Positions 1 through 38,153 of a stretch of DNA of 53,076 nucleotides are shown one piece after another. The stretch's first letter is position 1, and each line of letters opens with the position of its first letter. This DNA comes from a virus: IMG/VR virus record IMGVR_UViG_3300048065_000485, positions 1 to 53,076 of that record; one strand, given 5' to 3'. A program made the position numbers and the translations under genes. The notes below the pieces were generated by a model that was not told the origin of the DNA, ran no database searches, and saw only the letters and a program-made list of their open reading frames with translations.

Positions 1-2
1 GT

Positions 3-830
3 TATATCTTATTGGGTATGTTTTTATTAATACCTATGTCAGCAAATGCAGATGATAACGAAGTATTTTTAGGTAACATAAGTGGTGACAATTTAGAACT
101 AGATATACTACAAGCAGGTACTGATAATACAGTCACAGGTATAACAGAGTCAAGTCAATTTACAGGAGACGACAATACCTTACATATTATGCAAATAGGT
201 ACTGGAAATTTGTTTGAAGGTAATTGGACTAGTGGCGGCCTTAATACTTTAAAAGTATTCCAAGGTGGTGGCGGTAATGATAATTTTGTTAGGTTAACAG
301 GGTTTGGAACAAACAATACTGGACTTGTACTACAAGGTATGCACTCGGACGGAACTATTGACGCAGATGAAACAGGCTCCCACGAAGCATATTGGACAGT
401 AACAGGCGACTACAATGAGTTTTCCAGTTTTCAAACAGACACTAACCGAGGCAATGGAAGTGGAGATAGTCATCACTTAGCACATATAATTGATGGTGAC
501 TACAATGATGTTTGGCATAGGCAAAGAGGCAAAGCAGGACACGACGGTTTTATAGAAATCACAGGCGATTACAACGATGTAATTTTAGACCAAAAAGGCA
601 GTGGTGGTAAAAAATGGGCAGATGTCGTTTTAGATGGCAATGGACATAATATTGATATAAATCAACGTGGTACAAATTATGCATCAGCGGCAGTTGATTT
701 AACATTTGGTACAGGTGCTTACACATTTGATTTATCACAGAATGTCTCATCAGCAACAGCAACATACTCACTTACCGGTATATGTAATAACTCAGGAGGC
801 TGTTCAGTTACAGTGAATCAGAATAACTAA
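3..830 (+). CDS. Curlin-repeat secreted protein (CsgA/CsgB-like), 5' partial
   Basis: The reading frame is open to the left edge, so the true start lies upstream. The visible N-terminus is a hydrophobic stretch ending in SANA before DDNE, which looks like the second half of a signal peptide with cleavage after ANA. The mature part holds about nine degenerate repeats with spacing G-x-x-N-x(3-5)-Q-x-G, for example DNTLHIMQIGTGN and GDYNDVILDQKGSG, and ends in VTVNQNN. This Asn/Gln/Gly periodicity is the hallmark of curlin amyloid subunits (CsgA/CsgB), which are exported by CsgG. The likely role is an extracellular or outer-membrane fibre made during infection. No CsgG is visible, but it could lie upstream. 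Curli-type genes have been reported in pelagimyophages as far as I recall. The next gene starts in a TAATG overlap, so they are co-transcribed. Confidence 0.72.
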   Translation, partial: YILLGMFLLIPMSANADDNEVFLGNISGDNLELDILQAGTDNTVTGITESSQFTGDDNTLHIMQIGTGNLFEGNWTSGGLNTLKVFQGGGGNDNFVRLTGFGTNNTGLVLQGMHSDGTIDADETGSHEAYWTVTGDYNEFSSFQTDTNRGNGSGDSHHLAHIIDGDYNDVWHRQRGKAGHDGFIEITGDYNDVILDQKGSGGKKWADVVLDGNGHNIDINQRGTNYASAAVDLTFGTGAYTFDLSQNVSSATATYSLTGICNNSGGCSVTVNQNN

Positions 831-1144
831 TGCAAAGTTTAGACAGTTTAGGAAATCCAATACCCATTGAAGTAGACTATTTTGAATGCCCTGAAACTAT
901 GGTGTGTCTTACTGAAGAGACATTTAATGAAATGCTGGAACCATACGATATGGAATACAGCACAGAAACACTTGCACTTGAACCCAAAGGCGATGCAGAA
1001 GCAGTATTAGACTTCACAACTACATTATTATTTTTAGATTTTTGGACTATTGCCTATCTGGCAATACCTCTCACTATATTTGCAGTATATGGATTAAGTA
1101 TATATGCAGGCTTTAAATGGATTCAAACTAAAATAAGCAAATAA
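830..1144 (+). CDS. Small membrane protein, unknown function
   Basis: A 104-residue protein whose start overlaps the curlin-like gene's stop in TAATG, implying translational coupling. The first ~55 residues are acidic and soluble-looking, with two cysteines (ECPETMVC). Residues ~60-98 form one long or two short hydrophobic segments, followed by a basic end (KWIQTKISK), so a membrane anchor with the positive end in the cytoplasm is likely. I do not recognise the family. Position suggests an accessory to the secreted curlin-like protein, but that is inference only. Confidence 0.6.
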   Translation: MQSLDSLGNPIPIEVDYFECPETMVCLTEETFNEMLEPYDMEYSTETLALEPKGDAEAVLDFTTTLLFLDFWTIAYLAIPLTIFAVYGLSIYAGFKWIQTKISK

Positions 1145-1148
1145 TTAG

Positions 1149-1177
1149 TTGACACGCCGCAGTTTTTTTGCTATAAT
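1149..1177 (+). promoter_or_regulatory. Sigma70-type promoter
   Basis: TTGACA (1149-1154), 17-bp spacer, TATAAT (1172-1177): a perfect consensus. Predicted +1 is near 1184, only about 5 nt before the ATG at 1189, so the transcript would have almost no leader. Confidence 0.85.
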
Positions 1178-1188
1178 ATTTTTGAACT

Positions 1189-1377
1189 ATGAAACATATG
1201 ATCAAATGGCTGAAGATAACAGCCGGTATAAACTTATATCTATCCGTTATAATGACGTTTGTGTTTTTAACACTACTGTTTGCAATAGTATCCGACTATA
1301 ATTTAACTAATGCAGACGAATATGTTAGGTTCTTAATAAAAGAAGAAATGCAAAAAGACCCTAATGGAAATAACTAA
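1189..1377 (+). CDS. Small single-span membrane protein
   Basis: 62 residues with a basic N-terminus (MKHMIKWLK), one hydrophobic span at about residues 12-35, and a charged C-terminus. It lies directly behind a perfect sigma70 promoter and overlaps the next gene by 14 bp. A second ATG four codons in could also start it. Family not recognised. Being first behind a strong host-type promoter suggests early expression. Confidence 0.6.
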   Translation: MKHMIKWLKITAGINLYLSVIMTFVFLTLLFAIVSDYNLTNADEYVRFLIKEEMQKDPNGNN

Positions 1378-1666
1378 TTACACAAACAGTCTTAAGATTT
1401 ATTTTCTTGCTTTTGTAAGTGTACACATAATTGCATTCGGTGTGTTCTTCCCATTAATAGCATTTTTAATATTTTGTATATTAATGCCTTTTCTTTGGAT
1501 TACTACAATCTATATGATAATGTATAATTATTGCAGACAAGAAGGTATAGACTGGCCCTATACAGAAGGTAACCCAGTTTTACTAGATGTACATTTAACT
1601 CCATTCTATTACTTAAATGATTACGACCCATTTATAGATTACTTTGATTATGACCCACGTTACTAA
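1364..1666 (+). CDS. Membrane protein, paralogue of the next gene
   Basis: 100 residues. The N-terminus TNYTNSLKIYFLAFVSVH leads into two hydrophobic segments (about residues 12-35 and 38-62), then a Tyr/Asp-rich tail (YYLNDYDPFIDYFDYDPRY). It shares a clear N-terminal pattern with the following gene (TN/TKYTNSL..Y..A.ASVH..A.G..YP), so the two arose by tandem duplication. It overlaps both neighbours (14 bp and 23 bp). Function unknown; a holin-like or envelope role is possible but not shown. Confidence 0.6.
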   Translation: MEITNYTNSLKIYFLAFVSVHIIAFGVFFPLIAFLIFCILMPFLWITTIYMIMYNYCRQEGIDWPYTEGNPVLLDVHLTPFYYLNDYDPFIDYFDYDPRY

Positions 1667-1964
1667 GTACACAAACAGTTTGAGAAACTATGCTATTGCT
1701 GTAGCAAGTGTTCACGCAGTAGCATTAGGTTGGTTATATCCAAATGTACTAATGCTTATAGTTGTTCCACCAATAATATTCTATTTGCTTTTCTTATATT
1801 GCGAATTAATGTATGAAATTGACGAAGGAACTAGATTAAGATTACTAAAAGCAATTCGTGAAGCAGACGACCCAATCACAAAAGATGTACTAACTTGGGA
1901 ACTGATATTACACGAAGAACATACTATATTTGGAAACAATTCAAATGATAGGTTAGGTTTTTAA
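1644..1964 (+). CDS. Membrane protein, paralogue of the preceding gene
   Basis: 106 residues, starting inside the 3' end of its paralogue. It repeats the TKYTNSLRNYAIAVASVH N-terminus, has two hydrophobic segments (about 14-32 and 34-55), and then a different, charged C-terminal half rich in Glu/Asp/Arg. The tails have diverged completely, so the membrane domain is the conserved unit. A second start, ATGACC, lies two codons in. Function unknown. Confidence 0.6.
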   Translation: MIMTHVTKYTNSLRNYAIAVASVHAVALGWLYPNVLMLIVVPPIIFYLLFLYCELMYEIDEGTRLRLLKAIREADDPITKDVLTWELILHEEHTIFGNNSNDRLGF

Positions 1965-1970
1965 TTTAAT

Positions 1971-1978
1971 GATAAATA
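1971..1978 (+). promoter_or_regulatory. Late promoter box GATAAATA
   Basis: T4-type late box upstream of the lipoprotein gene. Predicted +1 near 1984 gives a leader of about 48 nt containing a hairpin and an AAGGAG ribosome site. Confidence 0.6.
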
Positions 1979-1983
1979 TATTA

Positions 1984-2011
1984 TGTTATAATAACAGATT
2001 GTTTTATAACA
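1984..2011 (+). other. Inverted repeat at the 5' end of the lipoprotein mRNA
   Basis: TGTTATAA (1984-1991) pairs with TTATAACA (2004-2011) around a 12-nt loop. The hairpin would start at the predicted transcript 5' end and could protect the mRNA or affect initiation. Confidence 0.45.
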
Positions 2012-2031
2012 CTTATATATAAGGAGAAAAT

Positions 2032-2355
2032 ATGAACAATTTAAAAAATGCGTTCTTAGGTATATTCTTTGTAATGTTTGCTCAAGGTTGTGCTACAGTT
2101 GGTACCGTAATCGATGGCGGACAAAAACTAGCCACAGATACACTTGATACTGTAACAGGTACAGCAAGTGGTATCGTTGGTTCAGTTGCAAATGATGTCG
2201 GTAGTGTAGTTCAAACTACAGCAGAAGTTGGAGTTGGATTAGTCCAAACTGCGGCTGATACCGGTGCAGGATTAGTACAAGTTGTTGCTGACGAAGTCAA
2301 CAATCAAACTGATGCTTTACAAGAAGAAGAACCAAAAGAAGAGCCAAAAAAGTAA
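2032..2355 (+). CDS. Putative lipoprotein with 11-residue helical repeats
   Basis: 107 residues. A short basic start and hydrophobic stretch lead to a lipobox-like FAQGC at ~16-20; the -3 residue is Ala, so it is not ideal. Residues ~55-90 hold three 11-residue repeats of the form VGSVVQTTAEV / GVGLVQTAADT / GAGLVQVVADE, an amphipathic-helix pattern seen in lipid-binding repeat proteins. The end is Glu/Lys-rich. AAGGAG precedes the ATG by 6 nt. The gene ends A AAA AAG TAA, a canonical -1 slippery site at the stop codon, and the -1 frame stays open for 71 more codons, so a longer product is likely. Probable location: inner face of the outer membrane. Confidence 0.7.
   Translation: MNNLKNAFLGIFFVMFAQGCATVGTVIDGGQKLATDTLDTVTGTASGIVGSVANDVGSVVQTTAEVGVGLVQTAADTGAGLVQVVADEVNNQTDALQEEEPKEEPKK
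2346..2352 (+). promoter_or_regulatory. Candidate -1 ribosomal frameshift site (A AAA AAG)
   Basis: The heptamer lies in the required phase (cc[A AAA AAG] TAA) with the stop immediately after. A purine-rich AGAAGAG sits just upstream and could act as a stimulatory Shine-Dalgarno element. The -1 frame is open from 2313 to 2567. No strong downstream stem was seen. Confidence 0.55.
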
Positions 2356-2567
2356 CTAGCTCATTCTTTAAACCTTTTAAGTTTTTAAAACAGAACGAAA
2401 AACAAAAAGGTATAGACTCACCCTCGAAAGAGAGTGAGCAGGTAACTGAAGAGGATATTAAAGAACTTATATTGCAAAATAAAGTTCTAAAAGAGTTATT
2501 GAAAGATAAACTTTTAGAAGATGCAATTAAAGAATATTGCTCCAAGGTACCTGAAGACTGTGAATAG
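2352..2567 (+). CDS. Frameshift extension of the lipoprotein (charged coiled-coil tail)
   Basis: The -1 frame after the slippery heptamer encodes 71 residues: a basic/aromatic start (VTSSFFKPFKFLK), then a Glu/Lys/Leu-rich helix (EEDIKELILQNKVLKELLKD), ending CSKVPEDCE before TAG. There is no ATG or GTG in this frame and only two internal TTG codons, so frameshifting is the simplest way to express it. The amino-acid make-up looks coding. Its stop is overlapped by the GTG of the next gene (2560), as expected for a real translated unit. It would add a helical arm to the lipoprotein. The alternative is a degraded separate gene. Confidence 0.5.
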   Translation, partial: VTSSFFKPFKFLKQNEKQKGIDSPSKESEQVTEEDIKELILQNKVLKELLKDKLLEDAIKEYCSKVPEDCE

Positions 2568-3072
2568 ATTACTTTTCATCATAACATTAACATTTCCTCT
2601 GTTTTTAACGGCAGAGGAAATTGTTCTTAGTCCATCATACTTACCGGAAGGTAGTGTATTGGACCTTACCTATAATCCCCCACTAGATCCTTATTACTGT
2701 GATAATAATCCTGAACTTTGTAAAGTAATAGAAACTAGTGACATTCCAAAGTTTGATATGACTCCACGTGCTACTAATGGACAATGGATAGCATTTTGGA
2801 CGTTTCAGTTATTAGATGTATATTCAACATCACGAGCATTAAAGTACGATTGTGTAACAGAAATAAATCCGTTGTTTACAGAATCGCCTAGTGATGCTAG
2901 ATTGGTACTTACAAAAACACTTTTACTGGTACCTGGCTTAATGTACAACGATTACTGGAAAGAAGTCACACCTAACGAACTTAATGACACTAATATGGTG
3001 TACTCAATAGTTGTTGCAAATAACTTTAGATTACTTAACAAAGCCAAGCAGTATTGCAATAAAATACGATAA
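2560..3072 (+). CDS. Signal-peptide membrane protein with DVYST/EINPLF motif
   Basis: I prefer the GTG at 2560 over the ATG at 2521: it gives a clean signal peptide (NRLLFIITLTFPLFLTAEE), has AAGG upstream, and overlaps the frameshift extension by only 8 bp. About 170 residues. The mature part has paired cysteines (YYCDNNPELC) and the block FWTFQLLDVYSTSRALKYDC then EINPLF. That D..ST..AL...E.NPL pattern recurs in small polytopic membrane proteins of the DUF5658 type (from memory). A hydrophobic segment covers ~114-130. Function unknown; by position, part of the envelope block. A late box overlaps its stop codon. Confidence 0.6.
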   Translation: MNRLLFIITLTFPLFLTAEEIVLSPSYLPEGSVLDLTYNPPLDPYYCDNNPELCKVIETSDIPKFDMTPRATNGQWIAFWTFQLLDVYSTSRALKYDCVTEINPLFTESPSDARLVLTKTLLLVPGLMYNDYWKEVTPNELNDTNMVYSIVVANNFRLLNKAKQYCNKIR

Positions 3073-3075
3073 ATA
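3068..3075 (+). promoter_or_regulatory. Late promoter box GATAAATA, leaderless start
   Basis: Exactly 5 nt (ttgat) separate the box from the ATG at 3081, so T4 spacing puts +1 on the A of ATG. The box contains the TAA stop of the upstream gene (3070-3072). Confidence 0.7.
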
Positions 3076-3080
3076 TTGAT

Positions 3081-5150
3081 ATGAAATGGTTATACAGCGG
3101 GTACGCAGTAGCAGTATCTATAGCATTGTTACTCGCATTAAGGGTATTCGATCCTACGCCTTTACAAAGCCTACGTGGTCAAGTATTTGACAGTTACCAA
3201 CAATTAGATGAAGTAGTACAAAGTGATGACGTTGTATTAATAAACATTGGCGAAAAAAGTTTAGCAAAATACGGACAGTATCCTTTCCCTAGACAATACT
3301 ATGCTCAAATGGTAGTAGACGTTGCTATGAAAAATGGCGGTGTTATGGGTTGGACAATAATGTTTCCAGAAGCAGATAGGTTTCAGGGAGATGAAAGTTT
3401 TGCAGGTATGATGAATCAGAACGTTATGAATGTTCCTGGTGCAAGAAAGAATCCTGTAAACTATAATGTATTAAGCCAAACACCAAGTGTAAAGGGTATA
3501 AAGTCAACAGGACCACATATAGGCACAGGCACAATAGGGCCTGTTCCAGCAAAAGATTATTTGCTTACTTGGCCCAACTTAGTTACTAATGTAGACAAGT
3601 TAGAATCAGCAAGTAATGGTAAAGGAGTAAATGCTTCAGCACCACAACCAGATAATCAAACAAGAACATATCCATTAGCAATTACAGTAGGTGATAAAAT
3701 ATATCCTAGTTTTGCTGTAGAAATGTTAAGGGTAAAAACAGGCAAACCTAGTTACATAATTAAAACATCAGAAATAGGAATACAGGAAGTTGCTGTTCCC
3801 CCATTTGACCCGATAGTAACGCAACCAAACGGAACAGCATATATAAGATTTAATAATGAATTTACTGAAATTGAATATGAGGGTGCAGAAAGCATTCCAG
3901 ACTTAGCAGGTAAATTTGTTATAGTAGGTGTTACAGCAGAAGGTATTGCTAACCCTGTGCCTACACCTAAAGGAAACTTATATCCTCAACAGATACAAGC
4001 ACACATGCTACAGAACTTTATAGATGGTAGTAATATAACAAGGAGTCAGTTAAGTGCTGTCATAGAGCTTCTAGTAGGGTTACTGACTATGGTTCTTGTT
4101 GCTTTAGCAGTATATAGATTACCATTGCTTTTAACAGCACCTATGGCTTTAGCAGTATTAGGTGGTATAGCATACTTTAGTGTTTACAAATATACTAGTA
4201 GTTTGGTATTATTAGATGCAACTTTCCCTGTATTAAGTGGATTTTTAGTATTTACACAGGCGGCATTTAATAACTTTTACAAGCAGTTTAAATTACGTGA
4301 ACAAATTAAGAAACAATTCGAACATTACCTTGCTCCAGCAATGGTTAAAAAATTACAGAAAGATCCAAGTTTATTACGTTTAGGTGGAGATACAAAAACA
4401 ATGACATATCTATTTTCAGATATTAGAGGTTTCACACCGATATCAGAACAGTTTAAAACAGATCCACAAGGTTTAGGTAAACTTATAAACAGATATATGA
4501 CACCAATGACTGACCTCGTTATGCAGAAAGAGGGAACAATAGACAAATACATAGGTGATGCCTTAATGGCAATTTGGGGAGCACCACTTGATATAGAAAA
4601 TCATGCTCAGTTGGCAATAGAAACAGCACAAGAAATGGAAGTAGAATTAGCAAAATTAAACAAAGAACTAAAAGCAGACGGACTTATGGAGTTAGGTGTT
4701 GGTATAGGCATAAACACAGGTGATGCAGTAGTAGGTAACATGGGCTCAGATCAACGATTCGATTATACAGTATTAGGCGATAGTGTAAATTTAGCGGCAC
4801 GTTTAGAAGCACAAACAAAAGAGTATGGTGTATTCTTTATGTTTACTGAACACACTCTTAAGGAAATTACAGCACCTGAAAATTTAGTGATGTTAGATAA
4901 AATTGCTGTAAAAGGACAAACAGCACCAGTTACAATTTATACTATTTTAAAAGATCATAAAGAAGCAAGAGTTATTAACAGAATGGTAGATGCATATCAA
5001 AACAGAGAATGGAGTACAGTTGCACATCAAATAGAAATTATTAATCAGCATAACTGGAATTCTGTATTAGCAGAATTATATGGTCAAAGAATTAAACAGC
5101 CTATGCCTAAAGGCGAATGGGACGGAGTTGAACGTAAAACAACTAAATAG
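3081..5150 (+). CDS. CHASE2-domain class III adenylate cyclase
   Basis: 689 residues. An N-terminal membrane anchor (~6-22) precedes a periplasmic CHASE2 sensor domain (~25-320, with the typical VVLINIGEKSLAKYGQYPFPR start), three membrane spans (~325-410), and a C-terminal class III cyclase domain (~440-625). Catalytic residues look complete: metal aspartates D447 (FSDIRGFT) and D493 (KYIGDALMAIWG), substrate-determining K490 and T563 (FDYTVLGD), and transition-state N570 and R574 (NLAARLE). The Lys/Thr pair fits a class IIIb adenylate rather than guanylate cyclase. It should convert ATP to cAMP at the inner membrane in response to a periplasmic signal. A late box 5 nt before the ATG predicts late, leaderless expression. 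Such a gene is very unusual in a phage. Confidence 0.92.
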   Translation: MKWLYSGYAVAVSIALLLALRVFDPTPLQSLRGQVFDSYQQLDEVVQSDDVVLINIGEKSLAKYGQYPFPRQYYAQMVVDVAMKNGGVMGWTIMFPEADRFQGDESFAGMMNQNVMNVPGARKNPVNYNVLSQTPSVKGIKSTGPHIGTGTIGPVPAKDYLLTWPNLVTNVDKLESASNGKGVNASAPQPDNQTRTYPLAITVGDKIYPSFAVEMLRVKTGKPSYIIKTSEIGIQEVAVPPFDPIVTQPNGTAYIRFNNEFTEIEYEGAESIPDLAGKFVIVGVTAEGIANPVPTPKGNLYPQQIQAHMLQNFIDGSNITRSQLSAVIELLVGLLTMVLVALAVYRLPLLLTAPMALAVLGGIAYFSVYKYTSSLVLLDATFPVLSGFLVFTQAAFNNFYKQFKLREQIKKQFEHYLAPAMVKKLQKDPSLLRLGGDTKTMTYLFSDIRGFTPISEQFKTDPQGLGKLINRYMTPMTDLVMQKEGTIDKYIGDALMAIWGAPLDIENHAQLAIETAQEMEVELAKLNKELKADGLMELGVGIGINTGDAVVGNMGSDQRFDYTVLGDSVNLAARLEAQTKEYGVFFMFTEHTLKEITAPENLVMLDKIAVKGQTAPVTIYTILKDHKEARVINRMVDAYQNREWSTVAHQIEIINQHNWNSVLAELYGQRIKQPMPKGEWDGVERKTTK
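5142..5149 (+). promoter_or_regulatory. Late promoter box ACTAAATA, leaderless start
   Basis: TAAATA followed by gtagt and the ATG at 5155 (5-nt gap). The box overlaps the cyclase stop codon TAG at 5148-5150. Confidence 0.55.
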
Positions 5151-5154
5151 TAGT

Positions 5155-5481
5155 ATGAAAAACTTTTTACACAACATAGTACAGAAAGGCAAATCTGCTT
5201 TAATATGGTTAGGCCAATTGGCTTATAAAATCTATAAAGCAATAGTTAAATTTATTTTTAAACTCCTTTACGAAGAATACGAATTGACAGTTTGGTATCT
5301 TAAAGACTCAGTCAGAGATAAAGACGGTAACATAACAACTACAAGATCACATAAAAGATATCTTTTAAAGAAAATTTCTAAGAAAACTCCTAAACATATC
5401 AAAGGAAAAGATATGGAAGGAAGAGCATTTGAAATTAGAACTGTAGAACCTTTTGATTATCAGATAAGAAAAATTTATTAA
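5155..5481 (+). CDS. Small basic protein with amphipathic N-terminus, unknown
   Basis: The start at 5155 is chosen because a late box sits exactly 5 nt upstream; the upstream in-frame ATG at 5080 lies inside the cyclase gene. 108 residues. Residues 1-45 are a hydrophobic/basic helix (WLGQLAYKIYKAIVKFIFKLLYEEY) and the rest is very Lys/Arg-rich with a possible beta segment. It may bind membrane or nucleic acid. Convergent with the next gene; the two abut with no gap and no terminator is visible. Family not recognised. Confidence 0.6.
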   Translation: MKNFLHNIVQKGKSALIWLGQLAYKIYKAIVKFIFKLLYEEYELTVWYLKDSVRDKDGNITTTRSHKRYLLKKISKKTPKHIKGKDMEGRAFEIRTVEPFDYQIRKIY

Positions 5482-9142: not shown

Positions 9143-10528
9143 ATGAGAAATATTAATATATTTTATTTAGAAGATGGGTTTCAGTTTACTAAAGAAACTA
9201 TAGAACAACATACGGCAAAAGGTTGGACAGGACGTGAGCCCTTGCCGTTGCATGTACTCACACAAATAGAATTAGAGCAGAACTATAATCCATTTAAGGA
9301 AATGTTTGACATAAACATTATTAATAATGGTGACATATCGAAATGTGATTCACAAGATATCACACTTGTTCCAATAGATATACAAAGTTTTCCTATAACA
9401 ATAGAAAATCGTAAGAATTATTACTTGTCTCCTTTTGGAGAAGAAGTAGATAAAGTAGTACAGAAAATTCTTTCTTTAAACTTACCAAATTTAGTTTTAT
9501 TGTTTTATTCTAGTACTGAGCCTTATTTCTTTGATGCAAATATATACCTTGCAGAGTTAGGTTCTAATAATCCAAATATAAAAATTATATTAAGTGGGTC
9601 AGGAGAGACTGAAGATTATTTTGGGCACTATACTAATTATACAGCAAAACTTCGTAATGTACATAAAATACACAAACTTTGGTATTTTGATCGAGTACAT
9701 TATATGACATTCTTATCACAAGATGAAGAATTTAATAAAGTCCATTTAGAAATGGATAGAAAAATGACTGATAGAGAAAAGAAACTGTACCACATAGTAC
9801 CTAATAAATTTTTGTGTACACTAAGAAATTGTCGTTCTCATAGATTGCTTTTTTCTACTCTATTAGAAAATAGTGCTATAGGATTAGATGATATAACATA
9901 TGGCAGATTCTATAGTTTAAGACCTACAGATTTAATGAAAATTGCCGGCAACGAAAACACTAAAGATGAATATCCATATCATATAGAACTTATTTCAACT
10001 AGTCTTAATCAATTATTAAACAAAGAAGATTTAGATGATAGTTTAACAAGAGATGTAATGGACAATCTTATGAGCCGCCCACATATAATCGATATGAAGA
10101 ATATAGACGATAGAGGTATTCCCGGCCCTTGGTTATATGAAGACTGTGATATTGTAATCACTCCAGGCGGAGAACCTTACGGATATGGTTATGTAGACGA
10201 AAAGCAATTAATACCTATGGCATTTAAAAAGCCTTTTATAACATTTGGCTGTAAGGGAATTTACGAAGAATTAAAAAATATAGATTTCAAAACTTTTGAT
10301 GATTGTTGGCCTGTAAATTTTAATGAAGCAGATACTTTATTAGAAAGAGTACAAGGCTTCTTTACTGTTTTTGAATATATAAGAAATTTAAGTCCTTCTG
10401 CATATCAAGAACTATTAGAAAAGACAAAGGATAGTGTAGAGTTTAATTATAACCATTTAGTAGATGGTACATTTAGAAGAAAAAGTAATGAAAACTTTTT
10501 TCAGGAGATTTATAATGCCTGCAGTTAG
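9143..10528 (+). CDS. Glycosyltransferase-like protein (exostosin-like C-terminal pattern)
   Basis: 461 residues, no signal peptide. The stretch KFLCTLRNCRSHRLLFSTLLE followed ~100 residues later by DIVITPGGEPYGYGYVDEKQLIPMAFKKPFITFGC and a hydrophobic/aromatic run resembles phage glycosyltransferase-like proteins: an N-R..HR block, then an acidic ..EK...P....PFI..G motif that would bind a sugar nucleotide. The gene at 33817 is a distant paralogue. AGGAA precedes the ATG. It opens the biosynthetic cassette, suggesting transfer of the cassette's product to DNA, protein or host surface. The substrate is unknown, and the catalytic assignment is inference from pattern. Confidence 0.5.
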   Translation: MRNINIFYLEDGFQFTKETIEQHTAKGWTGREPLPLHVLTQIELEQNYNPFKEMFDINIINNGDISKCDSQDITLVPIDIQSFPITIENRKNYYLSPFGEEVDKVVQKILSLNLPNLVLLFYSSTEPYFFDANIYLAELGSNNPNIKIILSGSGETEDYFGHYTNYTAKLRNVHKIHKLWYFDRVHYMTFLSQDEEFNKVHLEMDRKMTDREKKLYHIVPNKFLCTLRNCRSHRLLFSTLLENSAIGLDDITYGRFYSLRPTDLMKIAGNENTKDEYPYHIELISTSLNQLLNKEDLDDSLTRDVMDNLMSRPHIIDMKNIDDRGIPGPWLYEDCDIVITPGGEPYGYGYVDEKQLIPMAFKKPFITFGCKGIYEELKNIDFKTFDDCWPVNFNEADTLLERVQGFFTVFEYIRNLSPSAYQELLEKTKDSVEFNYNHLVDGTFRRKSNENFFQEIYNACS

Positions 10529-11393
10529 AGGAGCAAGACCTGTTAGAAATAAAGAAATTCAGGATTTTCATTGGCACTTAGATAAAAATGATTTAAAAAA
10601 TGTAACACTTTCAGAATACGAAAAAGTTTGGAGAGAATGGATTAATTATTCTAATACAAAATCTCTACAAGGTTTAGAAAATTTTACTCATGTAGATTAT
10701 ACACAAGGAACAAGCCAAACATTTGATCAGTTTATTTTAAGGCATAGTAAAGACAGAGAAATAATTGTTTTAAGCGGAGACTTCCAATATCATGCTTGTT
10801 TAGGAAAGCACGTTGAATTTAAATATGTAGACTATCCTCACTATTTAGAAGGCACACTACAAGGTCCAGGCTTACATGCTTTACTTATAAGTGCACCATT
10901 TAGTGACTTTGGTGTTATACATCCTGACTTTGAAGAATTAATGAGAATATGTAATGTAATGGATATACCTGTATGTTTGGATTTAGCATATTGGGGTATT
11001 AGTAAGCATGTTCATATAAATTTAAATGATTTCCCTGCTATTAAAGAAGTCACATGTAGTCTAAGTAAGCCATTTTTTACACTGGAAAATCACAGAGTAG
11101 GCGTACGATTTACAAGAGATTATGTAGATGATGGTGTAAGTATGCTTAATGAAGTAAAAATGCAAAATAATTATAGTATGGCATTAGGTGTAGAATATAT
11201 GCGTAATTTTTCTCCTGATTATAATTGGGAAAAATATAGAGATTTATACGAAACAATATGTTCTAATGAAGAATTAGTTTGGACAGATACTATGATTTTT
11301 GGATTAGGAGATGATATAAGACATGCAGAATATAATAGAGGTGTGTCTGGTAACTATAGAGTCTGTATTTCGGACTGGCTAGGTGATTGTTAA
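10515..11393 (+). CDS. PLP-dependent aminotransferase-like protein (fold type I)
   Basis: The ATG at 10515 has AGGAGA 6 nt upstream and overlaps the previous gene by 14 bp; the in-frame ATG at 10464 lies too deep in it. 292 residues, shorter than most aminotransferases (~350-400). Fold-type-I marks: D156 in CLDLAYWG (pyridine-nitrogen Asp, with Y159) and K185 in CSLSKPFFTLENHRVGVRF, where S-x-S-K...R-x-G-x-R is the Schiff-base lysine and phosphate-binding pattern. The small domain seems reduced. It could aminate a keto-sugar or keto acid within the cassette. Assignment rests on these motifs; a catalytically altered relative is possible. Confidence 0.6.
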   Translation: MPAVRGARPVRNKEIQDFHWHLDKNDLKNVTLSEYEKVWREWINYSNTKSLQGLENFTHVDYTQGTSQTFDQFILRHSKDREIIVLSGDFQYHACLGKHVEFKYVDYPHYLEGTLQGPGLHALLISAPFSDFGVIHPDFEELMRICNVMDIPVCLDLAYWGISKHVHINLNDFPAIKEVTCSLSKPFFTLENHRVGVRFTRDYVDDGVSMLNEVKMQNNYSMALGVEYMRNFSPDYNWEKYRDLYETICSNEELVWTDTMIFGLGDDIRHAEYNRGVSGNYRVCISDWLGDC

Positions 11394-11400
11394 ATAAATA
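11393..11400 (+). promoter_or_regulatory. Late promoter box AATAAATA before amidinotransferase
   Basis: Overlaps the upstream stop codon (taa 11391-11393). Predicted +1 near 11406, giving a 30-nt leader with AGGAG at 11423-11427. Confidence 0.55.
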
Positions 11401-11435
11401 GTAGCATATAATAACTACACCCAGGAGACACATAA

Positions 11436-12497
11436 ATGATAGTTAATTCTCACAACGATTGGGACCCATTGGAAGAGATCATCGTTGGACATGCTCACCA
11501 CAGCAGAATTGCAACTGATATATCCGCAAGAAGTTTCAGTTACGCAAACTTTCCAAAAGAAGACGTAGAAAAATTAGAAGGCACTTATCCGCAATGGGTA
11601 ATTGACGAAGCAAATGAAGATGCAGATGGACTTGCAAAAGCATTAGAAGATTTAGGTGTAATAGTACACCGTCCTAAAATTATAGATTGGGATAAAAAGA
11701 ATTACGACATAGGCCAAGGCTGGAATACAAAAGGCTGGTACAGTTGGTGTCCGAGAGATTTAATATTACCATTAGGCGATATGCTTATTGAAACTCCTAC
11801 TCCTGTAAGAGCAAGATATTTTGAAACAAGATTATACGAAGACATTATGTATGAAGCATTTGAAGATGGTGCTTTATGGATGTCAGCACCAAAACCTAAG
11901 TTACATGATGACATGTACACATTTGAAGACATTGAAGACAAGCCAACGTTGTTAAACCATGAAATTTGTTTTGATGCACCAAACATTGTGAGAGTTGGTA
12001 AAGACTTGTTGTATCAAGTTAGCAATAGTGGTAACATGAAAGGCTACCAGTGGTTAAAAAGATTAGTTGAACCTATGGGTTACAAAATGCATTATAGTGA
12101 ACTTTACAGTTTCGCACATTTTGATAGCACTATTGTTCCACTTAGACCAGGGCTAGTACTTATGAACAGCTCAAGGGTAACACCTGACAACTGTCCTGAA
12201 ATGTTTAAAAAGTGGGATAAGATTTGGTTTGATGATTGTGTTGTACAAGGTAGTAAATTAGCAGACGAAGGCTACATGCCACCATGCTCACCATACATTG
12301 GTATGAACTTACTAAGTGTAGATCAAAATACTGTAATCTTAGACTCAGCACAAGAACCTCTAATGAGGGAACTTGACAAGTACGGTATAGATAGTGTACC
12401 TGTACAGTTTAGGCATTCTATGACGCTCTCTGGCGGCATACATTGTGCTACTTTAGATCTAAGACGTAAAGGAACTTTAGAGAGTTATTGTGATTAA
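11436..12497 (+). CDS. Glycine amidinotransferase family enzyme (AGAT-like)
   Basis: 353 residues. The start matches the family (SHNDWDPLEEIIVGHA). Predicted catalytic triad in the guanidine-modifying fold: D180 (FDAPNIVRVGKDLLYQ), H228 (FAHFDSTIVPLRPG) and C337 (GGIHCATLDLRRKG). Spacing is close to human AGAT (Asp254, His303, Cys407). It should move an amidino group from arginine onto an amine. The neighbouring PLP enzyme could supply the amine. The gene has its own late box and AGGAG ribosome site. Phage copies are unusual; the acceptor is unknown. Confidence 0.88.
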   Translation: MIVNSHNDWDPLEEIIVGHAHHSRIATDISARSFSYANFPKEDVEKLEGTYPQWVIDEANEDADGLAKALEDLGVIVHRPKIIDWDKKNYDIGQGWNTKGWYSWCPRDLILPLGDMLIETPTPVRARYFETRLYEDIMYEAFEDGALWMSAPKPKLHDDMYTFEDIEDKPTLLNHEICFDAPNIVRVGKDLLYQVSNSGNMKGYQWLKRLVEPMGYKMHYSELYSFAHFDSTIVPLRPGLVLMNSSRVTPDNCPEMFKKWDKIWFDDCVVQGSKLADEGYMPPCSPYIGMNLLSVDQNTVILDSAQEPLMRELDKYGIDSVPVQFRHSMTLSGGIHCATLDLRRKGTLESYCD

Positions 12498-12984
12498 ATA
12501 CGGGCATATAGATAACTTCGGTATCACACATGATCAGATGAGTCAATTAAACTTTGAAGATTACTTCCAATGTTATCAGCAAACACCTGCTGTAGAAAAG
12601 TATTATACAAAACATAATAGTAGTATATGGCAGATGTTTGAAACTTCCCCTCAATGGGTACATGATTTATCATTAAAAATACCTCAAGACTTTGATCACC
12701 ATGTAGTAAGTGTAATTAATGTAGAGCCTGGGCAGACAATTCCACATCATGTTGATAAACATTTTAAATTAAAACAAGAACATGGTGAAGGCGAAAGTCA
12801 TCGCTATCTAATATTTTTAGAAGATTGGAAACGTGGACACTATTATGAAGTACATGATCAGCCTTTTGTAAAATGGAGAGCAGGTGATTGGGTAAAGTTT
12901 GGTATAGATGATTGGCATATTGCAGGAAACATGGGAGAGGAGCCTTTTTATTCAGCACAAATAACGGTACTAAAAAATGTATAA
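12490..12984 (+). CDS. 2OG-Fe(II) oxygenase-like / cupin-fold protein, first of a pair
   Basis: The GTG start overlaps the amidinotransferase stop by 8 bp. 164 residues. Candidate iron ligands: H87-V-D89 (PGQTIPHHVDKHF) and distal H143 (DDWHIAGN), with R105 (SHRYLIFLED) between, in the layout of aspartyl/asparaginyl-hydroxylase-like double-stranded beta-helix proteins. It would hydroxylate a substrate using 2-oxoglutarate and O2. The next gene is a paralogue with the same HxD..H frame. Substrate unknown; likely the cassette intermediate or a protein side chain. Confidence 0.62.
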   Translation: MIKYGHIDNFGITHDQMSQLNFEDYFQCYQQTPAVEKYYTKHNSSIWQMFETSPQWVHDLSLKIPQDFDHHVVSVINVEPGQTIPHHVDKHFKLKQEHGEGESHRYLIFLEDWKRGHYYEVHDQPFVKWRAGDWVKFGIDDWHIAGNMGEEPFYSAQITVLKNV

Positions 12985-13519
12985 AGGACATAAAGATATT
13001 TCATTTGTTACAGATGAAATGATTTATAGAGTTAAATTTACAGAACATACTAATACAGTTTATAGTGCAGGTTTTTGGGATAGTATGGGAGTAGCAGTAC
13101 CTGATTATCCTTACGATGCACCTTGGGTACATCAAGTATTTGAAAGTGATTGTGATTATTGGGTGCATGAAGTTAAACACCAATTTGATGATGTATTAAA
13201 ATATAGTGTTGCTACAGTAAATTGTATTAAACCTGGGAGGTTTATTGCACCACATACAGATACACTTTATAAAATTAAAGAACGAGTAAAGAAAGAAAAA
13301 TTAAACATAAAAGGATTAGAACCTGTACGAATAAATTTATTTTTACAGGATAGGTTGATGGGTCATTATTTTGAAATGGAAAATGAATCTTGGATAGATT
13401 ACAAAAAAGGAGATTTTACAGTAATAAAACCTAATGCAGAACATCTTGTTGCAAATTTAGGATACCAAAATAGATACACATTACAAGTTACAGGATTTGC
13501 AGAAAAAGGAACATTTTAA
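12977..13519 (+). CDS. 2OG-Fe(II) oxygenase-like / cupin-fold protein, second of a pair
   Basis: 180 residues; overlaps the preceding gene by 8 bp. Candidate ligands H93-T-D95 (PGRFIAPHTDTLYK) and H156 (NAEHLVANLG), with RINLFLQD and GHYFEME in between, matching the paralogue's RYLIFLED and GHYYEVH blocks. Two tandem copies with the same ligand triad suggest successive hydroxylations or different substrates. Family call is from motifs; a non-oxygenase cupin role cannot be excluded. Confidence 0.62.
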   Translation: MYKGHKDISFVTDEMIYRVKFTEHTNTVYSAGFWDSMGVAVPDYPYDAPWVHQVFESDCDYWVHEVKHQFDDVLKYSVATVNCIKPGRFIAPHTDTLYKIKERVKKEKLNIKGLEPVRINLFLQDRLMGHYFEMENESWIDYKKGDFTVIKPNAEHLVANLGYQNRYTLQVTGFAEKGTF

Positions 13520-13528
13520 GGAATAAAC

Positions 13529-14485
13529 ATGAGAATATTTATAACAGGAGCAGACGGTTTTATAGGTCAGCACATGGTTGAACGATTAAAAGACAAACAC
13601 GAACTAGAATTTTTAAAAGAAGATTTAAGAGACCATGCCAAGGTTGCCATGCAGATCTCAACTTTTGATCCTGAGATAATTGTTCATTTGGCGGCAAGAA
13701 CAGAAGTACAGGACAGTTTTTATGAACAAATAACTTTTAGCGAAGTAAATTACGTTGGTACTGTAAATTTAATTGAAATTGCGGCAACACTACCTAATTT
13801 GAAAAATTTTGTATTTGCAAGTACAATGGAAGTATATGGTTGGCAACCTATAAGTGATTTGATTAGAGACGGAAAAGAAGAAGGAATAATTGCATTTAAT
13901 GAAGCAACACCTCCGAATCCAAATGCCCCCTACGCCGTTGCAAAGTATGGCTGTGAAAAATACTTAGAGTATGCTCATAGAAGTTATGGATTACCTTTTA
14001 CTGCTATTAGACAAACAAATGCATACGGTAGAAAGGACAATGACTTTTTTGTAACAGAACAAATTATTACACAAATGTTAAAAAATCCAGATGAGATTAA
14101 CTTAGGATATGGCGAGCCATACAGAAACTTTATTTACATTGATGATTTATTAGATGCATGGGAAACAGTAATAACAAATCCTGATAAGTGTGCTGGTGAA
14201 ATATTCTGTATAGGACCAGACAATGCAATTAAAATAAAGGACTATGTGCAACTCATTGCAGATAAACTTGAATGGAAAGGTCATGTAAATTGGAATACTA
14301 AACCTCCAAGACCAGGTGAAATTTATTTACTTAATAGTACTAATCATAAAATTACAACAAGATTAGGTTGGTTCCCTAAAGTAGAATTAAGTGAAGGACT
14401 AGATAGAACTATTGCTGTCTGGAAAGATGTTTTAGAAAATAATTTGCCACATAATCAGGACAGAAGATTTTCTAAAGGAAAATAA
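13529..14485 (+). CDS. NAD-dependent nucleotide-sugar epimerase/dehydratase (extended SDR)
   Basis: 318 residues. An N-terminal Rossmann motif GADGFIG (G7, G10, G13), VHLAARTEVQ, S/T in FASTMEVYG, the catalytic pair Y135/K139 (PYAVAKYG), then RQTNAYG and NFIYIDDLLDAW identify an extended SDR acting on NDP-sugars. It would oxidise at C4 and epimerise or dehydrate the sugar. Complete length for the family. It gives the cassette a sugar-nucleotide branch. AAGGAA precedes the ATG; the next gene follows in TAATG. Confidence 0.9.
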   Translation: MRIFITGADGFIGQHMVERLKDKHELEFLKEDLRDHAKVAMQISTFDPEIIVHLAARTEVQDSFYEQITFSEVNYVGTVNLIEIAATLPNLKNFVFASTMEVYGWQPISDLIRDGKEEGIIAFNEATPPNPNAPYAVAKYGCEKYLEYAHRSYGLPFTAIRQTNAYGRKDNDFFVTEQIITQMLKNPDEINLGYGEPYRNFIYIDDLLDAWETVITNPDKCAGEIFCIGPDNAIKIKDYVQLIADKLEWKGHVNWNTKPPRPGEIYLLNSTNHKITTRLGWFPKVELSEGLDRTIAVWKDVLENNLPHNQDRRFSKGK

Positions 14486-16341
14486 TGTTTAACATTACTT
14501 TAGTTCAGCCTAATTTTCAGACTGGGCCTAAGCATCTTAATAGTTATTATTTGCCTTATAGTGTTGGTTCCTTATGGAGTTATTTACTACAACATTCTCA
14601 AATAGAAGAAAATTATCAAGTAGATAATTGGATATTTAGACGAGAAACATTACAAGATGTAGTAGATAGATGTAAAAATACAGATATAGTTTTTATAAGT
14701 TTATACATTTGGAATAAAAATTATTGCCTTATGTTAGGTAAAATTTTAAAAGAAGCCTATCCAAATATTAAAATTATTTTAGGCGGCCCTGAAGTACCTC
14801 ATAGAAATCCAAATTTTTTAAAAGACAATGATTATATTGATTCTATAGTAATCGGAGAAGGCGAGTTAGCAGTATTAGATATACTTACTGCTTATTTAGA
14901 TGAAAAACCCTTAGAGCAAGTGTATGAATACGAGAGGATAAAGGATTTAAACTTACCTAGTCCTTATACACTAGGATTGTTTGACGATCTTTTAAAACAA
15001 CACCCAGATATAGAATGGGTTCCAACATTAGAAACAGATAGAGGATGCCCTTACAGTTGTACTTTTTGTGATTGGGGAAGTGCCACAGCAAGTAAAATGT
15101 ATAAATTATATGACGATAGAATACTTGCAGATCTTCAATGGGTAGCAGATAATAAATTACCTTACCTAGCATTAACATCTAGTAATTTTGGAATCTTTAA
15201 GGATAGAGATTTGATGATAACAGATATGATTGTTAAAACAACTAAAGAAACAGGTTACCCAAAAGGCATTAGTGTAAGTTATGCAAAAAACAGTAATGAT
15301 ACTGTATTAGAAATTGTTAAAAAATTTATAGATGTGAATATACAAACAGGAATAACTTTGAGTTTACAAACAACAACTGAAGAAGTTTTAGAGAATATTA
15401 AACGTAAAAATATGAAAATTAATTCTATTGATGAAATCATAGGATCTGCAAAAGAAAAAAATGTTCCTGCCCTAACAGAATTAATATTAGGCATGCCAGG
15501 TGAAACTGTGGAATCATGGAAGTCTACTTTAGAACAAATATTAATAAATGAAATACCAACATTAGATGTTTACTTTTTACAACTATTAGTAAACTCTCCA
15601 ATGTATGTAAAACAAATACAAGAATATGATTTAAAAACATTTTATGCATATGACTTTTTCTATGGTGTACAGAACGAAAAATTTGAATACGATAAAAAAC
15701 ATAAGATATCGGAATCTATAGAAGTTATAAAAAGCACAAATACAATATCAGAAAAAGAAATGGCAGATGTATCTTTGTTTACTGTTTTTGTATTAGGATT
15801 TCAAATGTTTGGATTATCAAATATTATGTCTACTCATTTAAATAAAACACAAGGATTGTCTTATATAAAGTTCTATGAAGGTCTATACGAATATCTTATT
15901 GAAAACGATACTAATATTAATATATGGCTAGAAAAGTTACAAAAGGGTTTTATAGATTGGAAAAAAACAGGTTATATGGATACAAACATAGATGGAGTAC
16001 ATATAGAAGGTTGGAAATTTTTCCATTCCTTAATGCCAATCATTCAACAGAATAATTTAGTATCACATTATATAGATCTTGTTGCAGATTATTCTAAACA
16101 ATTTACAACATCTGATATTATAGAAGATTTTGTAAAAGTATCAAATTTACAAATTAAACAATTTGACTCACAAATACACGAATCTCTCCAGGTTACAGTC
16201 AAAAGTAACCTTTTTCCTGCAAATTTAATTATTTCTGATAGATACGGAGACTACTTGGCAGAAAAAGAAGAACACTTAGATATGCTCTTTTTTGGAAGAC
16301 GTAGAGGATGGCACCTTAATAAAATAAGTCTTGACAAATAA
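14485..16341 (+). CDS. Radical SAM enzyme with N-terminal cobalamin-binding-like domain
   Basis: 618 residues. Residues ~1-160 form a B12-binding-like Rossmann domain (LVQPNFQTGP, YYLPYSVGSLWSYL, IILGGPEVPHRN, IGEGE) without the DxHxxG base ligand, as usual for the radical SAM subgroup. The iron-sulphur motif CxxxCxxC is C188-C192-C195 (GCPYSCTFCDWG). ELILGMPGET is a typical later strand. The C-terminal ~200 residues are unassigned. It should cleave SAM to a 5'-deoxyadenosyl radical, doing methylation or rearrangement at unreactive carbon. The phage also carries a SAM synthetase at 41960. TAATG coupling to the epimerase. Confidence 0.88.
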   Translation: MFNITLVQPNFQTGPKHLNSYYLPYSVGSLWSYLLQHSQIEENYQVDNWIFRRETLQDVVDRCKNTDIVFISLYIWNKNYCLMLGKILKEAYPNIKIILGGPEVPHRNPNFLKDNDYIDSIVIGEGELAVLDILTAYLDEKPLEQVYEYERIKDLNLPSPYTLGLFDDLLKQHPDIEWVPTLETDRGCPYSCTFCDWGSATASKMYKLYDDRILADLQWVADNKLPYLALTSSNFGIFKDRDLMITDMIVKTTKETGYPKGISVSYAKNSNDTVLEIVKKFIDVNIQTGITLSLQTTTEEVLENIKRKNMKINSIDEIIGSAKEKNVPALTELILGMPGETVESWKSTLEQILINEIPTLDVYFLQLLVNSPMYVKQIQEYDLKTFYAYDFFYGVQNEKFEYDKKHKISESIEVIKSTNTISEKEMADVSLFTVFVLGFQMFGLSNIMSTHLNKTQGLSYIKFYEGLYEYLIENDTNINIWLEKLQKGFIDWKKTGYMDTNIDGVHIEGWKFFHSLMPIIQQNNLVSHYIDLVADYSKQFTTSDIIEDFVKVSNLQIKQFDSQIHESLQVTVKSNLFPANLIISDRYGDYLAEKEEHLDMLFFGRRRGWHLNKISLDK

Positions 16342-36422: not shown

Positions 36423-36467
36423 TAATACTAAAACTATTATGACTAAATGGTCACGGAGAATTTAAAA

Positions 36468-38153
36468 ATGGAAAGATTCCTTTATGAGAATATAATTAAA
36501 ATTGCAATCGTTATTACTTTACCACTTTGGACAGCCTATGCACTTGCTGAAGATGTAGAAGAAGTAATTGTTATTGCACAAGAAGTTAAGGCAACAGAAA
36601 CAGATTCACTTACTGATACAAAATTAATTACCAGTATTATGCCTGATGTTACTTACATAGCAGGAGGCTATGGAGGCAATGTTTTATTCAGAGAGCGAGG
36701 TACACAATCTGTACATACAGCAGTTTACAGAAATGGTATACCGCAAAATACACCTGGTTCAGGTTGGTATGACTTTGCACATGATATTGTATCAGGGGAA
36801 GATGTTAAAGTAATTAGCGGAGCCAATAGTGTAATGTATGGCTCAGGAAGTATTGGTGGTACAGTTTTAATAAAAGACTTAATTAAGAAAGGTGTAACAG
36901 GCAGACTTGGTAATCAGTCACATAGATATATTTCAGTAGCACCTACAAACTGGATGCAAATTACAGATTTTTCTGTAAAACAAAATGCTAGAAATGATAA
37001 CGAAGAAGAAGACACTTATGAAAATACCAGTGCAAAAATTATTGCAGATGCAGGTGACTTTACATTGTATGTTACTTCAACTGATTATGCTTATGATTAT
37101 GATAATTGCTTCACAGCAGAGTTTACACAAAGTAATGATTGCTTACAGGACGGTGAAAGATTTACAGTAAGTATTAGAAATGAATACTTTACTATAGGTA
37201 GATCAGAAGATAAAGCAGAATATTTTACTGAGGGTGTTAGTACATATCAAAATGAAAGTAGCAGAGACTTTTTTAGAGTAGGCGATACAGTAAAGTTATC
37301 TAACTTATTGGATGTTACTTATGGTGTTGATGGTAGCAAAGATCAATACATGGAACAAGAACAAGACAACTACGGTGCCTTTTTAAGTGTAAATGCCAAG
37401 TTCGCCTTAGAATATAACTTTGGTATTAGATACGGAAACAATGATCAAAATGCTGTAAGATTAGGTATTGCAAAAGATCAGTTCTTTTTTAATGTAGGAA
37501 CTAGTTATAGGAGACCTAACTTATATGAACTTTATGGTGATGCCTTTGTAGATCCTAATGAAGAATTACTTCCAGAGGAAGGAGTTGGATATGAAATAGG
37601 ATTTGGTGCCATCAGTATTTTTAAATACGAATTTGAAGAAGCAATAGAATATACTGCACCATATTCAGAAACAGTATTGGTTGCACCTGCTACATTTGAT
37701 GCAGAAGGAAATCTTTTAACTGAACAAATAAATGAAGAAATTTATTATAATGCAAAATATAATAATTCAGGTGCTTATGATACTCAGGGTATTAGATTTG
37801 CTAATACATGGGGACCTTTTAGTATAAATCTAAAAGTAAATGACACAGATCAAACTAGAATACCAGAGTATGTTGGTGTTATTACATGGGATCAGATGTT
37901 TAAAGATATAAATTATAAAGTACAATATTCAGGGCAGTTTGATAGAGCACCTGGACCTTATGATGTTCTTTCAGAAGAGCAAGAATTTTTAGAAGATCTC
38001 ACAAAACTTAGTGTGTATATTACAAAAAGATTTACTAATGGAATGAATTTAAACTTTGCAATAGACAACATTACTGATGAGGAAGTTGAAGTGTTACCAT
38101 ACTACAATAACCAAGGCAGACAAATTAACTTGACAATACAATACAATTGGTAG
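36468..38153 (+). CDS. TonB-dependent outer-membrane receptor
   Basis: The start at 36468 has ACGGAG 8-10 nt upstream; the ATG at 36447 lacks one. 561 residues. Signal peptide 1-27 (cleavage ALA/ED), then a TonB-box-like EVIVIA at 32-37, plug domain ~45-145 (VLFRERGTQ, VYRNGIPQNTPGSGW, VKVISGANSVMYGSGSIGG) and a ~400-residue beta-barrel of alternating strands ending INLTIQYNW with the aromatic C-terminal residue needed for outer-membrane insertion. It would import a scarce ligand (iron complex, cobalamin or similar) using host TonB, or mask/replace a host receptor. Size is at the small end (BtuB-like). Phage-encoded TonB receptors are, to my knowledge, essentially unreported. Own promoter and terminator insulation. 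Confidence 0.88.
   Translation: MERFLYENIIKIAIVITLPLWTAYALAEDVEEVIVIAQEVKATETDSLTDTKLITSIMPDVTYIAGGYGGNVLFRERGTQSVHTAVYRNGIPQNTPGSGWYDFAHDIVSGEDVKVISGANSVMYGSGSIGGTVLIKDLIKKGVTGRLGNQSHRYISVAPTNWMQITDFSVKQNARNDNEEEDTYENTSAKIIADAGDFTLYVTSTDYAYDYDNCFTAEFTQSNDCLQDGERFTVSIRNEYFTIGRSEDKAEYFTEGVSTYQNESSRDFFRVGDTVKLSNLLDVTYGVDGSKDQYMEQEQDNYGAFLSVNAKFALEYNFGIRYGNNDQNAVRLGIAKDQFFFNVGTSYRRPNLYELYGDAFVDPNEELLPEEGVGYEIGFGAISIFKYEFEEAIEYTAPYSETVLVAPATFDAEGNLLTEQINEEIYYNAKYNNSGAYDTQGIRFANTWGPFSINLKVNDTDQTRIPEYVGVITWDQMFKDINYKVQYSGQFDRAPGPYDVLSEEQEFLEDLTKLSVYITKRFTNGMNLNFAIDNITDEEVEVLPYYNNQGRQINLTIQYNW

Follow-up and report, generated by a model that had tools for sequence, protein, structure and literature searches.

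A probable −1 programmed ribosomal frameshift in a lipoprotein gene among phage curli (type VIII secretion) genes

Conserved programmed frameshifts are mainly known in tail chaperones and coat proteins in phages, and in mobile elements in bacteria (PMC5009743). Frameshifting in the phage tail-assembly chaperones, including gpG/gpGT of lambda and a known −2 shift in phage Mu, yields a minor, C-terminally extended product, with −1 and −2 versions occurring within one functional class (PMC5009743). In E. coli dnaX, the heptamer A_AAA_AAG and a downstream RNA stem give two products from one gene (PMC3711429). Given a stimulator, few −1 motifs in E. coli shift as efficiently as this heptamer, and the usual starting point of a stimulator is 5–8 nt downstream of the slip site (PMC4066793), a spacing also seen in IS911 and other IS3 elements, where a stem or pseudoknot follows the slippery heptamer and stimulators may be branched or pseudoknotted (PMC4066793, PMC5009743). 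The locus described here resembles each of these systems in part: it has the heptamer and downstream stem of dnaX and, like dnaX, two products, here predicted; the stimulator spacing of IS911; a predicted minor, C-terminally extended form like that of the chaperones; and, within one family, probable −1 and candidate −2 versions.

The stretch of DNA analysed (hereafter the window), a virus record of 53,076 bases, carries T4-like genes. Its large terminase is matched by >2,500 phage records, the best at 57% identity and from jumbo Pseudomonas phages. Close to its start lies a lipoprotein gene whose stop codon is followed, in the −1 frame, by a further coding region (the tail). Feature coordinates are given in Table 1.

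The lipoprotein gene and the frame behind its stop codon

The frame-0 product has the signal peptide and lipobox cysteine of bacterial lipoproteins and is predicted to be lipidated, and the lipobox F-x-Q-G-C is invariant at residues 16–20 in the alignment of relatives. The protein appears to consist of 11-residue repeats followed by an acidic, lysine-containing C-terminus, and the size difference among relatives corresponds to one whole 11-residue unit. By eye only, the body of the lipoprotein (positions 2095–2310 of the window), apparently made of 11-residue repeats, is reminiscent of amphipathic membrane-binding helices. The AlphaFold model of the lipoprotein was uninformative (mean pLDDT 45). 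Neither lipoprotein nor tail matched a Pfam or PHROGs family at threshold, the sole PHROGs match of the lipoprotein being a weak one to a tape-measure family (E 0.08) and a Pfam NAP match to the tail falling under its cut-off, and neither had a match among the 50,697 isolate phage records of INPHARED.

Table 1. Features of the frameshift locus and its neighbourhood (window coordinates)
Feature	Position	Strand	Remarks
Curlin-repeat protein	3..830	+	cut at window start; upstream end of conserved neighbourhood
Lipoprotein ORF, frame-0 product	2032..2355	+	107 codons/aa; signal peptide, lipobox FAQGC
Slippery heptamer A_AAA_AAG	2346..2352	+	in phase with stop; exact in 44/48 relative contigs
Tail, −1 frame	2352..2567	+	71 aa (VTSSFFKPFKFL...EYCSKVPEDCE) plus TAG; fused after KK upon shift
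Frame-0 stop TAA	2353..2355	+	directly 3' of heptamer; one codon later in L130/L131
Spacer, heptamer to stem	2353..2358	+	6 nt; 5 nt in four class-2 relatives
Stem 5' arm	2359..2369	+	GCUCAUUCUUU; 11-bp stimulatory stem
Loop CCUC	2422..2425	+	invariant; proposed pseudoknot 5' strand
Stem 3' arm	2429..2439	+	AGAGAGUGAGC; 11-bp stimulatory stem
GAGG	2451..2454	+	proposed pseudoknot 3' strand; kept in 28/29 sequences
Downstream gene, signal peptide	2560..3072	+	170 aa; GTG start overlaps tail stop
CHASE2-adenylate/guanylate cyclase	3081..5150	+	downstream part of conserved neighbourhood

The gene ends CCA AAA AAG TAA, and a slippery heptamer of the X_XXY_YYZ type thus stands in frame-0 phase at the stop codon. 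In all 16,469 codons of the genes in the window, phased A_AAA_AAG occurs three times, and the lipoprotein's copy alone leads beyond the stop of its gene. Because of this rarity, and because the heptamer is kept in 44/44 class-1 relatives and the tail evolves as a protein (see below), we consider it more than a chance occurrence. A shift at this site would produce the predicted junction EEPKKVTSSFFKPFK, which spans ...EEPKK-VTSSFF..., with 71 residues beyond the two lysines before the TAG at 2565–2567. The tail frame of the window contains no ATG or GTG, and its first TTG lies 119 nt past the shift.

The initial annotation had correctly given the coordinates and counts of a 107-codon lipoprotein ending in an in-phase A AAA AAG TAA, a −1 frame free of stops, and of ATG or GTG, for 71 codons, and a tail stop that overlaps the GTG of the next gene. 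That GTG lies at 2560. The description of the tail as a charged coiled coil holds only in part, the first half being predicted as coil and the second as one acidic helix. In the structural model, this single helix covers residues 35–67 of 73 (mean pLDDT 67) and is followed by a C-x6-C motif that is invariant in the tail. Invariant or near-invariant residues are found at both ends of the tail, as KKV..SF at its start and, around the C-x6-C, as Y-C-S-x-x-P-x-x-C at its end.

Conservation of the frame break and of a downstream RNA stem

Relatives were sought in IMG/VR with the lipoprotein, the fusion, the tail alone, diverse lipoproteins and DNA patterns, and the resulting family comprises 48 contigs, 47 from IMG/VR and one, metagenome-assembled, from GTDB genomes (L120); one contig is present both as a short piece (L102) and whole (L064). 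All family sequences are metagenome-derived and belong to uncultured marine viruses with bacterial hosts. The GTDB contig (JALRDI010000311.1), labelled Ilumatobacteraceae, bears the phage lipoprotein/tail locus and is probably misbinned phage DNA. In every homologue with readable sequence, the tail comes after the lipoprotein and in another frame, and neither an in-frame fusion nor a lipoprotein without tail was found among the 48 contigs, which hold 29 distinct sequences with lipoprotein identities down to 41%. Lipoprotein and tail subtypes occur in differing combinations, L054, for example, pairing an L036-type lipoprotein with an L030-type tail, as recombination close to the site might produce.

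We divided the family into 44 contigs with an exact A_AAA_AAG (class 1) and 4 without the heptamer (class 2). Even where the stop has moved by one codon, with GAC TAA after the heptamer (L130/L131), heptamer and stem are retained. Across 28 class-1 sequences, the tail has a summed pN/pS of 0.41 and a median dN/dS of 0.30, with 343/343 usable pairs below 1, versus 0.21 for the lipoprotein itself; tail indels are all multiples of three, and the other two frames contain 3–12 stops each. This comparison demonstrates purifying selection on the tail sequence. Alignment of homologues, which the initial annotation had proposed as a check on the heptamer and the tail frame, thus finds both conserved, with an exact heptamer in the window and in 44/48 contigs, and a coding −1 frame that, in the 44 class-1 contigs, has no start codon as far as the shift.

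The class-2 relatives (L035, L039, L133 and L134) read GAA AAG AAG TAR, with a run of only four A, followed by a 5-nt spacer, the same stem and a tail in the +1 (equivalently −2) frame. They may use a −2 (or +1) shift; in the −2 case, Lys-tRNA would slip back by two bases, exchanging AAG for AAA, and so lead into the tail. Loss of the heptamer with the tail kept as a separate gene had been named in the initial annotation as evidence against a frameshift. The first part of this is seen in these four relatives, but the stem is kept and no separate tail gene is evident, and for these two reasons we consider a −2 shift likelier than lost recoding.

RNAalifold, run unaided on 25 sequences, returned exactly the 11-bp stem, which begins 6 nt past the heptamer and thus within the distance of about 5–8 nt typical of −1 stimulators. 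Its arms pair GCUCAUUCUUU with AGAGRRUGAGC in the relatives, across a loop of 14–68 nt. Over 29 sequences, pairing holds in 99.4% of stem cells. Two-sided changes are seen at four pairs and fall in three lineages: L032 (C-G to A-U and U-A to C-G, its stem GATCACTC/GGGTGATC replacing GCTCATTC/GAGTGAGC), L062/L066 (C-G to U-A) and L033/L101 (U-A to A-U). None of 500 shuffles was as good as the two-helix structure, and slid versions of it were 50–61% paired. Silent positions within the stem are nearly frozen but variable elsewhere in the tail: GAG encodes Glu at 72/73 structural positions versus 43/170 elsewhere in the tail, CGC encodes Arg at 15/15 versus 1/13, and TTC encodes Phe at 23/25 versus 6/56. 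Synonymous shuffling of single sequences was set aside as proof of the stem, being too weak alone; since such shuffles reach the stem pairing in about 1–10% of draws, the case for the stem is drawn from conservation and covariation across relatives. No Rfam family matches the RNA element.

Within the loop, CCUC is constant although the encoded residue varies (P, S, A or T, all with third base C), and GAGG is located 8–11 nt past the stem. These two segments can pair, and may do so in a pseudoknot that closes the stem. This pseudoknot remains a proposal because CCUC and GAGG almost never vary and hence provide no covariation. A local hairpin of CCUC with GAGR was rejected, as it is only 85% paired and the pseudoknot pairing is better. 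A Shine-Dalgarno-like stimulator upstream of the heptamer is weak and inconsistent (−2.1 kcal/mol in the window, versus −9.0 kcal/mol for the strong ribosome-binding site at the gene's own start).

Probable frameshifting and its alternatives

Taken together, the heptamer, its phase, the spacer, the covarying stem and the coding tail, conserved together in 44 relatives, support the proposal of the initial annotation that a −1 frameshift gives two isoforms. We put the probability that −1 programmed ribosomal frameshifting yields a minor, C-terminally extended lipoprotein at about 0.9. Most ribosomes would terminate at 2353 and release the 107-aa lipoprotein, while a minority would be held back by the downstream RNA stem, maybe closed into a pseudoknot, and both lysyl-tRNAs at A AAA AAG would then slip back by one base and pair again. 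The shifted ribosomes would then read the −1 frame to 2567 and produce a 178-aa form with a periplasmic tail, in which a basic, aromatic stretch would precede an acidic helix and the conserved C-x6-C pair. This long form would be placed in the same compartment as the short one, where its basic aromatic tail start could contact the membrane or the cell wall, and the helix and C-x6-C, the latter perhaps forming a disulfide, could pair with another subunit.

One alternative, which we regard as improbable, is that the frameshift mainly delivers ribosomes to the downstream gene, by coupling at the GTG at 2560, rather than making a functional tail. The window and several relatives do have this GTG overlapping the tail stop, but in several others (L010, L013 and L018) a start codon comes some bases past that stop, and a search beside the tail of L067/L101, L111 and L117 showed no homologue of the downstream gene. 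The tail also has conserved residues of its own (Y-C-x6-C and SFFKP) and a dN/dS of about 0.3. The two outcomes could coexist: translational coupling of the downstream gene to the tail is possible, and ribosome delivery to its GTG would then be a second effect of frameshifting, though not a general one.

We consider it very unlikely that the tail is instead translated on its own, by ribosomes that re-initiate past the lipoprotein stop or start internally. The lipoprotein stop does lie just upstream, and a GTG or TTG is found 14–32 nt into some tails. However, in all 44 class-1 contigs the tail frame is free of ATG, GTG and TTG up to and including the shift, on which ground an own start for the tail was rejected, and start codons further into the class-1 tails are at no conserved place and would remove the conserved SFFKP segment. 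Re-initiation also leaves the exact heptamer, its phase and the covarying stem unexplained. Start codons for the tail frame in homologues, also named in the initial annotation as evidence against a frameshift, lie upstream of the shift only in class 2, where three of the four relatives have them inside the lipoprotein gene, making internal initiation possible there; the fourth, L039 (L121), again has none.

Transcriptional slippage on the A-run, by which a base would be added to some mRNAs to give a single-frame fusion, appears just as unlikely. It is a known alternative at A-rich sites, but the 6–7 A that precede the G are fewer than the A-runs (n > 7) listed for transcriptional realignment (PMC3711429), and the conserved stem at 6-nt spacing, the exact codon phase and the class-2 relatives with four A all point to the ribosome. 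Finally, although the frame break sits at a homopolymer, faulty sequencing or assembly and recent mutation of a fused gene are refuted as its origin by the relatives, in which the same break recurs in 48 contigs from many samples, with 29 distinct sequences, lipoproteins down to 41% identity and no in-frame fusion.

The phage curli cluster and comparison with known systems

The initial annotation had taken the gene for that of an envelope lipoprotein; a lipoprotein it is predicted to be, but its gene belongs to a phage, within that phage's curli-secretion cluster, and is not a bacterial envelope gene. In relatives, the gene order runs from a curlin through small membrane proteins (104, 62, 100 and 106 aa) to the lipoprotein/tail, a signal-peptide protein and a CHASE2-cyclase. 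Further upstream, L119 and L106 encode CsgF, CsgG, another curlin and FecR, with Pfam matches in L119 (CsgF 1e-11, CsgG 1e-46, FecR 3e-11) upstream of the same block. Adjacent CsgF, CsgG, curlin-repeat and FecR genes, characteristic of phage curli (T8SS) loci, are thus present in L119, and the window has curlin and cyclase only; because it begins within the second curlin gene, CsgF, CsgG and FecR are out of view. From its gene content, we identify the locus as a phage curli/T8SS cluster of the kind described in pelagiphages (PMC9599517). Positions 1–5481 of the window, together with L119 and L106, outline an extended version of this cluster, in which a block of four small membrane proteins plus one signal-peptide protein is absent from the phages HTVC008M and Melnitz.

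Elsewhere in this T4-like record, positions 36447–38153 (+) encode a protein of 568 aa that contains a TonB-dependent receptor plug domain (PF07715, E 5e-10); tblastn against 50,697 isolate phage records gave no match to it. A run of non-structural genes at 9143–16341 includes a radical SAM/B12-binding protein, an NAD-dependent epimerase and a protein that looks amidinotransferase-like by eye and has no Pfam match.

From gene position alone, we infer that the lipoprotein is an accessory of the phage-encoded curli module, the purpose of whose pore in marine phages is disputed (PMC9599517, PMC9004378). If it is such an accessory, it would matter that short and long forms are made in a fixed ratio. 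Fixed isoform ratios often mark assemblies with unequal subunits, and the locus accordingly suggests an envelope complex of defined structure close to the phage's curli pore. We tentatively suggest, with somewhat more doubt than confidence, that lipoprotein isoforms set by frameshifting tune a virus-carried curli (type VIII) module, in a family that switches between −1 and −2 shifts with the same stimulatory RNA.

The closest curli clusters, those of HTVC008M, Melnitz and pelagiphages, share the gene order of CsgF, CsgG, curlin repeats, FecR and adenylate cyclase (PMC9599517, PMC9004378). The cultured phages HTVC008M and Melnitz both carry CsgF-CsgG-curlin-FecR-curlin-cyclase, the HTVC008M genes in the FecR and second-curlin positions being annotated only as hypothetical, but differ in lacking the small-membrane-protein block, the frameshifted lipoprotein and its downstream neighbour. 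The tail-assembly chaperones likewise differ in setting: the lipoprotein gene lies in a curli-secretion cluster without an adjacent tape-measure gene in the window, its neighbours being curlin, small membrane proteins and cyclase, and no family match was found at threshold. In dnaX, an unrelated gene, the shifted product is shorter rather than longer, and an upstream Shine-Dalgarno-like element helps, where none is evident at the lipoprotein site. Compared to IS911 and other IS3 elements, the stem is long-range, with its 14–68-nt loop, and the shift would fuse a lipoprotein to a tail instead of producing a transposase. The literature searched contained no report of a programmed frameshift in an envelope lipoprotein. 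Within these sources, the kind of mechanism is already known, and the gene, its setting and the within-family frame switch look new. Annotation by the frame-0 ORF alone would overlook the tail in these contigs, and the lipoprotein family is a natural setting in which to compare −1 with candidate −2 shifting under a single conserved stimulator.
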